DNA from: an uncultured Saprospiraceae bacterium
GTDB lineage: Bacteria; Bacteroidota; Bacteroidia; Chitinophagales; Saprospiraceae
Length of the DNA stretch: 64,000 nucleotides
Reading direction: 5' to 3'
Assembly (NCBI GenBank): GCA_938045585.1
Contig: CALIAU010000015.1
Coordinates: forward strand, 1 to 64,000
Below are positions 4,561 to 50,586 of this stretch, in pieces; the first letter of the stretch is position 1, and every line of letters begins with the position of its first letter. The notes below the pieces were generated by a model, which saw only the letters and a list, made by a program, of their open reading frames with translations, did not search any database and was not told where the DNA came from. Position numbers and translations under genes: made by a program.

Positions 4561-4749
4561 ATTAGCAATGTATTAAGACAAGCCAATTATACGTACAAAC
4601 TCAAACCATAAAACCAGCGCAGCGAAAACCGTAACACCTGTCTGCGTGCGTAAGCAGGCAGAAGATACCGTGAGAAGAAATTAGCAATGAATTAAATAAA
4701 GCCAATATTCATAACAAACTCAAACCATGAAACCAGCGCAGCGAAAACC
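4561..4749. repeat. Imperfect ~70-bp direct repeat plus a third partial copy
   Basis: Bases 4561-4630 and 4680-4749 are two copies of the same ~70-base sequence. Both begin ATTAGCAATG and end CCAGCGCAGCGAAAACC, and they are 119 bases apart. The end motif ATGAAACCAGCGCAGC is repeated a third time at 4750-4765. A related, more diverged string (CCATGATACCAG, then GGAAACC) occurs at 44168-44195. Between the copies is a hairpin, CTGTCTGC (4638-4645) with GCAGGCAG (4654-4661). Nothing here looks coding. Confidence 0.65.
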
Positions 4750-7038: not shown

Positions 7039-7318
7039 AGACGAGAAAATAACTACCGCCCTCCAAGGCTTCATCGCTTCTAACAAGAAGATTAGAAACG
7101 GACTCATTAATGAGGAAGTCTCCCGTATCTGGAATGCAAAAATGCCCGACTCCGTAAAGTCCTACACGAAGAGTATCATCTTTTCCTATGGCAAAATATA
7201 TCTCAAAATAGAAAGCGCCGCCCTGAAGCAAGAACTCCATAGCAGTAGAGAAAAACTCAAGGAGCTCTTGAACACAGAACTAGAATCTGAGTTGGTAAAA
7301 GAGGTCTATGTTTCTTAG
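7025..7318 (+). CDS. DUF721 (DciA-like) protein
   Basis: A 97-residue basic protein with the DUF721 pattern: an N-terminal helix (ALQGFIASNKKIRNGLIN), then VSRIWNAKMPDSVKSYTKSI, then strands YGKIYLKIESAALKQEL. DUF721 includes DciA, the helicase-loading factor of bacteria without DnaC, and its linkage to recF is recurrent in Bacteroidota. It starts with TTG at 7025 inside the recF 3' end, so translation is probably coupled. A role with recF in replication is inferred from family and context. Confidence 0.85.
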   Translation: MKRNKDEKITTALQGFIASNKKIRNGLINEEVSRIWNAKMPDSVKSYTKSIIFSYGKIYLKIESAALKQELHSSREKLKELLNTELESELVKEVYVS

Positions 7319-7326
7319 ATTTTTTA

Positions 7327-7440
7327 TTTGGGCGTGCCCTATATCTTTACAGATATAGGTCGTTCCCTTCTAGGCTCGCCATTCGGCTCGGTCTCCTTCA
7401 GAGACCACACTTCGTGTGCCTGCCAGGCAACTCACGCGGG
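7327..7440 (+). repeat. Hairpin-rich 3' element A, TTTGGGCG type
   Basis: It begins TTTGGGCGTGCCC eight bases after the DUF721 stop. A perfect 9-bp hairpin follows (CCTATATCT 7338-7346 with AGATATAGG 7351-7359), then GGTCG. Next is a TTCGGCTCGGTCTC segment whose GGTCTC (7390-7395) pairs with GAGACC (7401-7406), and a small CACAC/GTGTG hairpin. The same modules in the same order occur at 50321-50447. Related elements follow the genes ending at 28179 and 44396. It leads directly into the tandem array at 7433. Confidence 0.65.
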
Positions 7441-7521
7441 ACGCAACGGACACGACGGACGCAACGGACACAACGGACGCAACGGACATAACGGACGCAA
7501 CGGACACAACAGAAGCAACGG
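7433..7521 (+). repeat. Nine-copy 9-bp tandem array, left arm
   Basis: From 7441 there are nine consecutive 9-mers, mostly alternating ACGCAACGG with ACACAACGG or ACATAACGG, giving an 18-bp higher-order unit. The same unit occurs in opposite orientation in the right-hand array at 7.8-8.3 kb. The region 7319-8304 (986 bases) has no credible gene. Open frames persist across it because the period is a multiple of three. Confidence 0.9.
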
Positions 7522-7703
7522 CTATCATTGTGCGTATGCAGGTAGGATAGTGCATAACTTTGAGAAGTAAACTTATTGGACAATTTTTGGCCAAAGAACA
7601 ATATGATGTATGTAGAGTGATGGGCTATAAGAGGAGAGTGGCTAGGCCAGTGAATTTTTAAAAAAACTTTCGGTGTTTTGTTCGACCTAAAATTAATACC
7701 TCC

Positions 7704-27456: not shown

Positions 27457-27837
27457 TTATTTCTTTTTGTTGAATAGTCTCTTGTATTGTAGGGAAGTTC
27501 CACCAAAATTTATGAGTAGACCAGTTTCCAAATTAAAAGCTTCCAGATAGTTTTTTCCTTGAGCTAGATGAGCATTGTTTAATTCTACAACAGCTTTTAT
27601 CTCTAATAAAATTGTATTTGCAACAAAAAAGTCCACTCTGCGTGTTCCAATATGTTTTTTTCTATAATAGATAGGTATCTCTACCTCTCTTAGATACTCC
27701 AGATTTTCCCATTTAAATTCTATTTCTAAAGCGCGTTGATATATTTTTTCTTGGAAACCAGATCCCAAAGTCGAATGAATGCGCATTCCACATCCTATTA
27801 TCCTATGCGTACATCTGTTTATATCAGGAATATCCAT
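27457..27837 (-). CDS. GxxExxY protein (PD-(D/E)XK nuclease-like)
   Basis: The 126-residue protein shows the name-giving motif GSGFQEKIYQRAL (G25, E30, Y33), preceded by RIIGCGMRIHSTLG, and the nuclease-type VDFFVANTILLEIKAV with an ExK-like pair. It ends LLINFGGTSLQYKRLF, standard for the family. The fold is related to PD-(D/E)XK nucleases, but the biological role is unknown. The gene stands alone and is flanked on both sides by degenerate ~9-bp GGATT arrays in inverted orientation, which suggests a small mobile or self-maintaining unit. This last point is inference. Confidence 0.88.
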   Translation of the reverse strand: MDIPDINRCTHRIIGCGMRIHSTLGSGFQEKIYQRALEIEFKWENLEYLREVEIPIYYRKKHIGTRRVDFFVANTILLEIKAVVELNNAHLAQGKNYLEAFNLETGLLINFGGTSLQYKRLFNKKK

Positions 27838-27965: not shown

Positions 27966-28050
27966 GTTCAAATACCCAAAGTAAACTCTACCATAAAACT
28001 TACACCCACCCGCGATAAGGAAGGTAAGGGCTCGGTAGGGGTTGCCACTA

Positions 28051-28151
28051 GGCGACCTACCTGCGTGCCACAAGCAGGCTGGCGGAACCCATGAACTGCC
28101 TGACAGCTCTTTCTGAACTTGAAGAGTGAAGAAAGAGATGGATCGCCCAAA
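28051..28151 (-). repeat. Hairpin-rich 3' element B, TTTGGGCG type
   Basis: On the minus strand TTTGGGCGATCC begins at 28151, 27 bases after the HMG-CoA lyase stop. A hairpin CTCTTTCT/AGAAAGAG follows, then a CCTGC (28060-28064)/GCAGG (28074-28078) stem close to an AGGTCGCC. It shares its start and general design with the elements at 7327, 44364 and 50321 but is the most diverged. Confidence 0.5.
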
Positions 28152-34288: not shown

Positions 34289-35686
34289 TTATAAGTGGAT
34301 GACCTCGTCATACGCAGCTGCAGTTGCTTCCATAATTGCTTCACTCATTGTTGGATGCGGGTGCACGGCTTTTAATATTTCATGTCCAGTTGTTTCTAGT
34401 TTTCTTGCAGTAACGATCTCTGCAATCATTTCAGTAACATTTGATCCTACCAAATGGGCACCCAATAACTCACCGTATTTTGAATCATAAATGACTTTGA
34501 CAAAGCCTTCTTTTGCTCCAGAAGCACTTGCCTTACCAGATGCAGAAAACGGAAACTTACCTACCTTGATATCAAAGCCAGCTTCTTTTGCAGCAGCTTC
34601 AGTATAACCTACACTTGCAACTTCAGGATTGCAGTAAGTACAGGAAGGTATATTATTATAATCCATTGGTTCAGGATGATGACCTGCAATCTTTTCTACA
34701 CAGATAATTCCCTCCGCCGAAGCCACGTGAGCAAGAGCAGCACCGGGAACAACATCTCCAATTGCATATACGCCAGAAACATTTGTTTGGTAGAATTCAT
34801 CCACCTGTATTATTCCTCTGTCTAATTTAATTCCCAATTCTTCTAAACCTATATTCTCTGTGTTTGGTGTTACTCCTGTAGCTGATAGCACTATGTCACA
34901 TTTGATAGTAGATACGTCCCCTGACTTATTATCTTTTACACTCACCGTACATCCGGATCCAGATGTGTCCACTTTTTCCACAGCAGAGTTTGCCAGAACT
35001 TGGATACCTGCCTTTTTCAGCACTTTGGTAATTTCTTTAGAAACGTCTTTGTCCTCTCTAGGTAATAAACCATTTGGCATGTATTCGACAACTGTAACTT
35101 CTGTGCCGATGGCATTGTAGAAGTAAGCAAATTCTACTCCAATTGCCCCAGCACCAATGACTAACATTTTCTTAGGTTGCTTTTTAAGAGACATGGCCTC
35201 ACGGTAACCAATAACTTTCTTGTTATCAATTTTTATGTGTGGTAGTTCTTTAGATCTTCCTCCTGTTGCAACAATAATTTGATCGGCACTATATTCTTTC
35301 TTTTTTCCAGTGGTATCTGTTACTTGAACCTTTTTGTTACGTGTCAGTTTACCAGTACCTTCGATTACAGTAATCTTATTCTTCTTCATAAGGAAGGTAA
35401 CACCCTTACTCATACCATTTGCAACATCACGTGATCTACTAATCATAGATTTAAAATCAGCTTTTGGAGAGGCTACAGAAATACCATAGTCTTCCGCATG
35501 GCTTATATAATCAAATACCTGTGCACTCTTAAGTAAAGCCTTGGTAGGAATACATCCCCAGTTTAGACAAATTCCGCCCAAACTTTCACGTTCCACAATT
35601 GCTACTTTTTTACCTAATTGGGATGCTCTTATCGCTGCTACATATCCACCAGGTCCTGAGCCAATAATTATTATATCAAATTTCAT
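34289..35686 (-). CDS. lpdA: Dihydrolipoyl dehydrogenase (E3)
   Basis: E3 reoxidises the dihydrolipoyl groups of 2-oxo acid dehydrogenase complexes and the glycine cleavage system with NAD+. The 465-residue protein has the FAD motif IIGSGPGGYVAAI (7-19), the redox disulfide GGICLNWGCIP (C40, C45), the NAD motif VIGAGAIGVEFAYF, the ATGVTPN and YAIGDV segments, and the dimer-interface catalytic pair HPHPTMSE near the C-terminus. It is monocistronic, with its own promoter box, and would serve the PdhA-containing complex and others. Confidence 0.96.
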   Translation of the reverse strand: MKFDIIIIGSGPGGYVAAIRASQLGKKVAIVERESLGGICLNWGCIPTKALLKSAQVFDYISHAEDYGISVASPKADFKSMISRSRDVANGMSKGVTFLMKKNKITVIEGTGKLTRNKKVQVTDTTGKKKEYSADQIIVATGGRSKELPHIKIDNKKVIGYREAMSLKKQPKKMLVIGAGAIGVEFAYFYNAIGTEVTVVEYMPNGLLPREDKDVSKEITKVLKKAGIQVLANSAVEKVDTSGSGCTVSVKDNKSGDVSTIKCDIVLSATGVTPNTENIGLEELGIKLDRGIIQVDEFYQTNVSGVYAIGDVVPGAALAHVASAEGIICVEKIAGHHPEPMDYNNIPSCTYCNPEVASVGYTEAAAKEAGFDIKVGKFPFSASGKASASGAKEGFVKVIYDSKYGELLGAHLVGSNVTEMIAEIVTARKLETTGHEILKAVHPHPTMSEAIMEATAAAYDEVIHL

Positions 35687-44159: not shown

Positions 44160-44364
44160 TAAAAAACCATGATACCAGTCCGAACGACGGAAACCTTGAT
44201 ACCGCGAAACCACTCAATGGTTCGCTATCCCTTCATCCTGCTTGCGTGAGCAACTTGTAATGGAGCAATGAAATTGCTAGTCCGTAGGACCGAGTGAGTA
44301 ACGAGCATGGAAAACTGCGACGTTTTTCTGAGGCAATTAGCTGAAGAAAAAGGGCACGCCCAAA
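44160..44364 (-). repeat. Hairpin-rich 3' element C, TTTGGGCG type
   Basis: On the minus strand TTTGGGCGTGCCC starts at 44364, 31 bases after the stop of the CNNM gene. A TTTTTCT/AGAAAAA hairpin and CGTCG follow, then a CTCGGTCC-TAC-GGAC hairpin comparable with the GGTCTC/GAGAC module of elements A and D, then short AT-rich stems. Its far end (GGTTTCCG, then CTGGTATCATGGTTTT) resembles the repeats at 4731-4770. The 314-base gap 44082-44395 contains nothing else I can name. Confidence 0.6.
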
Positions 44365-50313: not shown

Positions 50314-50447
50314 TTTTTTTAGGGCGAGACCTACCTGCCTACTTAACTAGGCAATTAGGTCGGAGTATTCCGGGCTCCCTGTTCGGTCGGTCTCAAGCAT
50401 GAGACAAATCCCTTCATGTTCCCTGCCTGCTTGCGCACGCAGGCAGG
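50314..50447 (+). repeat. Hairpin-rich 3' element D, GGGCG type
   Basis: TTTTTTTAGGGCGAGACC begins 22 bases after the small lipoprotein stop. An imperfect stem and GGTCGG follow, then GGGCTCCCTGTTCGG and TCGGTCTC, whose GTCTC (50390-50394) pairs with GAGAC (50401-50405). The element ends with a perfect 9-bp stem, CCTGCCTGC (50422-50430) with GCAGGCAGG (50439-50447). The order of modules matches element A at 7327. The 294-base gap to 50587 holds no gene. Confidence 0.65.
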
Positions 50448-50586
50448 CTCTCGCAGCAAGCTATACTTTAAGCTATCTTAGATAATACAACTCAGCTTAA
50501 AGAAAACAACTGTGTTATTTTTAAATAAATTGAATCAGTCTGCAATTTAGATTGTACATTGGGTTGTATCCAGAAAAATAAACACT

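Follow-up and report, generated by a model that had tools for sequence, protein, structure and literature searches.

REP sequences are dispersed, intergenic, palindromic and present in high copy number in either orientation; a GTAG or CGTC tetranucleotide at the foot of the hairpin is a feature of the REP/RAYT system, and for E. coli REP/BIME a role as a host-maintained protein-binding DNA site has been proposed. IS200/IS605 elements have folded ends and a T-rich 5' flank and lack the usual terminal inverted repeat. The attC sites of integrons conserve their fold while their sequence is free, sit behind genes and carry the core boxes RYYYAAC and GTTRRRY. One account gives the length of the REP palindrome as 20–40 bases (PMC3733652). 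The Flavo-1 motif (RF01705) is typed by Rfam as 'Gene; sRNA', and Weinberg et al. 2010 list it as RNA 'y' and cis-regulatory 'n', with Bacteroidetes as its distribution (PMC2864571). A study of the F. psychrophilum transcriptome reports Flavo-1 hits at several 5' transcribed regions, but also that the hits occur sense or antisense indistinctly and that many fall outside transcribed regions; no clear link to transcription was seen (PMC9723704). A three-way-junction element of the kind reported below was not found described in the accessible parts of the literature on bacterial repeats, REP/RAYT, attC and structured RNA.

The window analysed here, positions 1 to 64,000 of contig CALIAU010000015.1, belongs to a Saprospiraceae genome of 4.31 Mb (the host genome). 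The original prediction, made from its letters, described four intergenic elements that begin shortly after stop codons on the strand of the upstream gene. Re-checking of the letters located all four where they had been described (Table 1), at re-measured distances of 8, 27, 31 and 26–28 bases from the stop codons of DciA/DUF721, HMGL-like and CNNM+CBS genes and of a 70-aa lipoprotein-like ORF, the last of these (upstream of the copy at 50319) without a Pfam match. We built a covariance model, R1, from an alignment (A1) of 13 host-genome copies, with three stems (P1, P2 and P3) and one hairpin. With filters off, R1 found only these four places at E<=1 in the whole window, the lowest score being that at 28151 (−), and the four fit one model. 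For the copy at 50319 the model end falls short of the likely end owing to a 26-base palindrome before the 3' end. The word TTTGGGCG occurs four times in the window versus 0.86 expected (1 of 100 shuffles reached four), and one of these occurrences, at 35575, lies inside a 465-aa ORF and is no element. The tandem repeat that begins at the base right after the 3' end of element A is probably a neighbour and not part of it. A PDDEXK_3 gene, which we take to be of the GxxExxY type, lies 173 bases past the 3' end of the 28151 element.

Table 1 Elements, their pairing segments and adjoining features in the 64,000-base window
Feature	Positions	Strand	Basis and detail
Complete element A	7327–7438	+	R1 107.4 bits, E 1.8e-22; single-copy fold; letters checked
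Element A, P1	7332–7336 with 7433–7437	+	GCGTG with CACGC
Element A, P2 hairpin	7338–7346 with 7351–7359	+	Followed by TC 7360–7361
Element A, P3 base	7362–7364 with 7429–7431	+	GTT with AAC
Tandem repeat	7439–7521	.	18-base unit GGACGCAACGGACACAAC, 4.6 units; Tandem Repeats Finder
PDDEXK_3 gene	27457–27837	−	
Divergent copy	28011–28151	−	R1 17.2 bits, E 0.026, filters off
Divergent copy, P1	28146–28142 with 28016–28012	−	GCGAT with ATCGC; both-sides change from GCGTG/CACGC
Divergent copy, palindrome insert	28056		Up to 3 mismatches allowed
Complete element	44243–44364	−	R1 76.3 bits, E 1.5e-15; P1 GCGTG/CACGC, P3 base GCA/TGC
Variant element	50319–50455	+	R1 32.5 bits, E 9.7e-6 over 50319–50437
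Variant element, P1	50324–50329 with 50449–50454	+	GCGAGA with TCTCGC; pairing and 3' end by eye

Across the host genome, R1 matched at least 114 copies (E<=0.1; 150 of 480 candidates scored), and this count, like the other copy counts given here, is a lower bound because only part of the candidates was scored. The 14-letter seed TTTGGGCGTGCCCT, with up to one mismatch, occurs at 59 places versus 0 for a reversed control pattern, and 56 of the 59 are R1 matches. Elements are about 74–190 bases long and, in the orientation of TTTGGGCG, have the layout TTT-GG-(P1 GCGNN)-(P2 hairpin)-TC-(P3 NNN ... N'N'N')-T-(P1' N'N'CGC)-R. Since P1 pairs both ends of the element, a strand can form a three-way junction, in which P2 is a hypervariable hairpin, P3 contains further hairpins, and TTTGG, TC and T are conserved and unpaired. 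P1 is invariant among the 13 copies of A1 because these were picked with the TTTGGGCGTGCCCT seed. Both-sides changes of P1 are found in two window copies (GCGAG/CTCGC at 50319, by eye, and GCGAT/ATCGC at 28151), and other genera carry GCATG/CATGC (L165), GCATC/GATGC (L163) and GGCAT/ATGCC (L162). Among 115 host-genome copies, 90.7% of cells are paired, 18 of 19 pairs have both-sides changes, and both-sides-changed cells number 375 versus 126 in shuffles and 11–54 in slid controls; these counts lean towards the model, as the alignments were fitted to it, and they agree with the original observation that stem sequences differ while pairing is kept. Alignments that bring in other genomes (33, 46 and 28 sequences) gave similar covariation, with a weaker signal in the count of further pair types, which 9 of 500 and 28 of 500 shuffles reached in the 33- and 46-sequence alignments. 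An outer stem P0 joining the flanks, suspected in some copies of genome G281, was rejected (mean longest stem 5.55 versus 5.12 shuffled, highest shuffle 5.6; mean longest stem in genome G000 4.71 versus 4.62 shuffled).

Such strong stem covariation argues for an RNA element, be it a 3'-UTR, terminator-associated or small RNA of the upstream gene or an independent sRNA of the opposite strand, the class in which Rfam places Flavo-1. For P1 plus the first three pairs of P3, G-U pairs number 14 of 903 in alignment A2, with none among 262 in A3 and none among 223 in A5, versus 7 of 146 in the acceptor stems of 21 tRNAs from the examined loci (Fisher p 0.019). Over all six P3 pairs of A2 the share is 29 of 611, close to that of the tRNA acceptor stems, a resemblance that counts for RNA. 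As G-U pairs are scarce in the first of these two sets of pairs only, their low number gives a weak hint of a fold at the DNA level, and we rejected it as proof of one.

The orientation of the copies relative to genes bears on a transcript-based role. A flanking region was available for 113 of the 114 copies, of which 108 have genes called on both sides and 5 are edge cases. The upstream gene lies on the same strand for 57 and on the opposite strand for 51 of the 108 copies, and the neighbour arrangement at the 60-aa setting is convergent for 33, divergent for 17, tandem sense for 24 and tandem antisense for 34. Tandem sense and antisense counts were 23/33, 24/34, 25/34 and 25/32 at four caller stringencies and 27/34 with a first crude caller. 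Contrary to the original prediction, sharing the orientation of the upstream gene is not a property of the family. Orientation across the host genome is random, an outcome that the original prediction had itself named as refuting; given these counts, the four window cases are genuine but belong to a family that is neutral in orientation. Stops on the 5' side are close: for sense copies the median distance from stop codon to element is 36 bases, and 35 of 57 lie at 50 bases or less, a pattern that also favours RNA. Stops on the 3' side are further off, with a median of 124 bases and 14 of 67 within 50. Of the 57 sense copies, only 6 are preceded by a terminator-like hairpin within 70 bp, and of the other 51 none is. 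With orientation random and terminators few, the proposed role in transcript ending, 3' protection or as an RNA of the upstream gene is unsupported, and the orientation counts rule out a transcript-end role as a general rule. Insertion behind terminators was rejected as a rule too: it is seen at one flavobacterial site, but the host genome has just the 6 of 57 and 0 of 51 copies. Neutrality extends to replication. With the origin taken at dnaA, 150 candidates per genome scored and 13 of 141 copies near the presumed terminus excluded, 62 copies in four complete flavobacterial genomes are oriented with fork movement and 66 in the opposite direction (p 0.79).

The feature that recurs is a T-rich 5' flank, which follows the strand of the element itself rather than that of the gene. 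With the first gene caller, a T-run of at least four within 18 bases 5' was present in 28 of 60 copies that share the strand of the upstream gene and in 22 of 52 that do not, and an A-run in 7 of 60 and 4 of 52. Position −1 is A in 61% and position −3 is T in 58% of copies, and TTA stands directly before 19 of 108 elements (17.6% versus 4.8% background). The possibility that P2 acts as a guide matching the target was rejected, as the longest word shared by P2 with its own flank equals that shared with the flanks of other copies (5.68 and 5.64 for 100 upstream bases; 6.41 and 6.54, 5.64 and 5.62, and 6.38 and 6.39 for three further ranges).

Reverse-complemented, the Flavo-1 consensus corresponds to the P3 arm of flavobacterial elements (GCTTTCCGCTACAATC...GATTTCCGCTTCAATC). 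The Rfam model of 76 positions spans P3 and the 3' end, without the P1 pairing and without the P2 hairpin. Ten of 17 flavobacterial and other related elements overlap an RF01705 match at E<=1, four of the 17 reach the gathering score, and one Fibrobacter copy scored 42.1 with a cut-off of 42. RF01705 had no match in the window at the gathering cut-off, none at E<=5 on 7200–7600 and none at E<=1 in 12 host-genome loci; these 12 loci were without any Rfam match at E<=1, which counts against the RNA reading, as does the one site at which the element stands directly behind an intrinsic terminator. Flavo-1 and the element are alike in their Bacteroidetes distribution and in having no fixed orientation, and the orientation finding of the F. 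psychrophilum study agrees with our whole-element result (PMC9723704). The Rfam type, the RNA 'y' of Weinberg et al. 2010 (PMC2864571) and the 5' transcribed regions at several Flavo-1 hits speak for RNA; the random orientation relative to genes and, in the same transcriptome, Flavo-1 hits in both orientations and often outside transcribed regions speak against it (PMC9723704). Weighing these, we consider an RNA element improbable.

The suggestion of similar repeats in other Bacteroidota that accompanied the original prediction was borne out by a phylum survey and an exact-pattern search. Including the host, 5 of 25 relatives carry the family (108, 94, 8, 46 and 108 R1 matches) and 20 of 25 have no R1 match at E<=0.01; among the same-family genomes other than the host, 4 of 15 are positive (94, 8, 46 and 108 matches) and 11 of 15 are zero. 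With a broader model, R2, and 27 candidates scored per genome, 21 of 148 phylum-wide genomes were positive, host included. The exact pattern was found in at least 117 stretches of named genomes, and the 80 matches listed are mostly Bacteroidota. Among the matches listed are three Fibrobacterota records (L387, L388 and L418) and two that we take to be Spirochaetota (L405 and L425), and misassignment of these is possible, since three of the five are labelled MAG. Occurrence is patchy between sister genera. In genome G014, copies that look near-identical stand at unrelated places (by eye). Two side observations belong here: inverted pairs of elements with facing 3' ends, about 76–580 bases apart, occur at L078, L083, L147 and L069 (contigs C9, C11, C10 and C5 of the host genome); and the element of a Treponema record has a DUF3800-XI RNA match (L425:2155-2203; 51.3 bits against a cut-off of 37.8) some 70 bases to its 5' side.

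Orthologous sites were also compared. Of 10 loci chosen by eye in two same-genus genomes, 6 have the element in both species with its orientation kept, and at 4 it is absent; at the shared loci core and pairing are kept where the flanks no longer align. At C5:290414 a rare P1, GTGTC/GACAC, is present in both species, and at C3:30996 the P1 types differ between the two species. In a flavobacterial locus next to a metH-like gene (named by eye; L268 and 29 relatives), the model matched in 16 of 29, four further copies were recognised by eye (L270, L275, L296 and L297), and nine relatives are without the element. Another flavobacterial intergenic region (L298 and 29 relatives) gave model matches in 7 of 29, that in L301 being partial; the copy of L308 lies about 0.5 kb further on, that of L307 looks decayed, and truncated remnants stand in L304, L310, L322 and L325 (by eye). 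In L298 and several relatives the element lies right behind the T-run of an intrinsic terminator, and other relatives keep the terminator without the element. None of the orthologous sites compared offered an exact empty site in which both junctions could be read, and the joined flanks of host-genome copies gave no spanning matches in the stretches of G000 and G001 examined. The element ends are therefore only likely ones and target duplication is unproven, as both would take a near-identical empty site with both junctions.

Retention of core and pairing beyond flank alignment (6 of 10 loci, by eye) would fit a host-maintained chromosomal site for a nucleoid, gyrase or repair protein, folded or double-stranded, that spread long ago. 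Such a site would also account for independence of gene and replication direction and for the conservation of one site across five Algoriphagus loci, of which two belong to genomes that have a single match. It sits poorly with the patchiness between sister genera, where 11 of 15 family members have none, with absence and decay at orthologous sites and with the near-identical copies in G014, and we regard it as unlikely overall, if not negligible.

Comparison of closely related copies shows that the hairpin arms change much faster than the core. Among 109 splittable host-genome copies, 81 pairs have a body identity of at least 0.85 (mean 0.92), and the identity of P2 in these pairs is 0.62, with 0.50 in random P2 pairs. 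The copies at C5:17896 and C7:106366 have an identical body, and their P2 are exact inversions of each other. At a shared Algoriphagus site, L416 and L417 agree in 241/250 of the upstream flank, 33/34 of the core, 22/22 of P2 and 30/49 of the P3 arm; a second Algoriphagus pair, L377 and L383, agrees in 225/251, 34/34, 19/22 and 32/49. The downstream flanks (250 bases) have also diverged (183/292 for L416/L417 and 169/287 for L377/L383), being alike in the first ~60 bases only (by eye), which counts against a simple reading of P3-arm turnover. Also against it, the sequences of a Chryseobacterium/Epilithonimonas pair have diverged to an ordinary degree in all parts (239/250, 34/34, 30/31 and 46/51). 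At E<=0.001 a single match was found in each of the L416 and L417 genomes (G319 and G320; 150 of 1,453 and 150 of 1,650 candidates scored), so that copy-to-copy exchange has no obvious source of arms there; at this site, a maintained local function fits better than a parasite.

A second repeat family was observed alongside the first. The palindrome CCTGCCTGC-N-GCAGGCAGG (up to 3 mismatches) occurs in the window at 4637, 28056 and 50418 and is nested in element arms, with 46 of 113 copies carrying one and 56 of the 91 palindromes in the 598 kb examined lying within elements. At the shared site C7:104983 it is present in just one of two species (by eye). In a subfamily of G281 (L338-L357), P2 is long, its upper part is AAAGGGG...CCCCTTT-like in most of the 20 copies and the remainder is variable (by eye); a ATAAGANCTTTA-like word stands past the 3' end in about 6 of these 20 (by eye).

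Known mobilising enzymes were sought as partners. No Y1/RAYT match (PF01797) was found in the element-rich G014 with its 108 copies. Of 20 RAYT-type loci, 8 are in element-bearing genomes, 2 of these 8 having a copy, about 1 and about 3 kb off, and the remaining 12, in genomes without an R1 match, have none, as expected. RAYT was rejected as a partner, being absent from G014 and its genes not being flanked by the element. The element resembles REP in being dispersed, intergenic, palindromic, high in copy number and present in both orientations. It differs from REP/REPIN in its ~74–190 bases and three-way junction, as against the 20–40-base palindrome given in PMC3733652. It shares with IS200/IS605-derived MITEs folded ends, a T-rich 5' flank and the lack of a usual terminal inverted repeat, but its ends pair together (P1), its copies have no replication-strand bias (62/66), and G014 has no Y1 transposase match. 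A group II reverse transcriptase (TIGR04416) had no match in the element-rich G000, G001 and G014 and was rejected on that ground; separately, the complete flavobacterial genome G127:C1 contains 22 group II reverse-transcriptase matches. When gene clusters were compared at 80 named loci, no recurrent neighbour gene was found next to the element, the neighbours being shared neighbourhoods or scattered common genes.

With attC the element shares a kept fold, free sequence and a position behind genes, and it could in principle be a site of that kind, at which a tyrosine recombinase recombines the folded strand, swapping small gene cassettes. Tyrosine recombinases of the ordinary type occur in 23 of 23 genomes, and a C38 ORF of the host genome matches the integron integrase model TIGR02249 in two pieces (122 and 96 bits). 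TIGR02249 was above cut-off in 0 of 23 genomes, for which the integron integrase was rejected as a partner, and sub-cut-off matches are present in all 14 control genomes too. The metH-like locus supplies the other argument for cassettes. Between the 3' end of the element and the metH-like gene, species of one flavobacterial genus (L268-L297) have differing small ORFs (~70–330 aa; up to ~1200 bases inserted), mostly co-directional with the metH-like gene and next to the CTCACGC end of the element, and this could be a cassette-like hotspot. Against it, the same locus has ORFs without the element (L277 and L284) and elements without a 60-aa ORF (L276 and L281), and copies are dispersed rather than arrayed and fold into a three-way junction, unlike attC. 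An attC-like site seems very unlikely to us. At L231:75-194 and 302-406, the metH-like locus that has the GGGCG element also contains a SAM riboswitch together with a canonical Flavo-1 (68.9 bits), and the Flavo-1 match adjoins a small hairpin whose loop includes a T-run.

The reading that we favour, with considerable reserve, is that of a mobile, REP/MITE-like structured DNA element in a Flavo-1-related, Bacteroidota-wide superfamily, its folded DNA read by a putative enzyme. An enzyme acting in trans would take the folded strand as its substrate and copy the element, or move it, into T-rich sites; selection on DNA recognition would maintain the fold, and the arms may be renewed by hairpin replacement, inversion or recombination. 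In favour are the high copy number and patchy occurrence, the neutrality towards genes and replication, the T-rich flank, the presence and absence of copies at orthologous sites, the near-identical copies of G014, the wholesale change of arms and the exact-pattern matches in Fibrobacterota and Spirochaetota records. Mobility is weakened by the result that no mobilising enzyme was found among Y1/RAYT, integron integrase and group II reverse transcriptase, by the lack of an exact empty site among the sites compared, and by the single matches of G319 and G320 at a shared site. Some old copies may be retained for local use, in view of their persistence at one Algoriphagus site and at 6 of the 10 orthologous loci.

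In some Bacteroidota genomes such repeats are a common feature between genes, and their Flavo-1 part has been filed as RNA since 2010. The present data supply the larger element with its likely ends, the three-way-junction fold, the T-rich flank and the orientation neutrality. They raise the possibility that a DNA element was filed as RNA on covariation alone, and the questions of which enzyme moves such folded DNA and what causes the fast turnover of arms. More speculatively, and with more doubt than confidence on our part, the family might represent a new class of mobile DNA, in which a putative trans recombinase reads a folded single-stranded three-way junction, inserts it 3' of T-rich tracts and swaps arms. 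If true, sequence would turn over while shape is inherited, and the Flavo-1 'sRNA' would be one arm of the element, described on the wrong strand.
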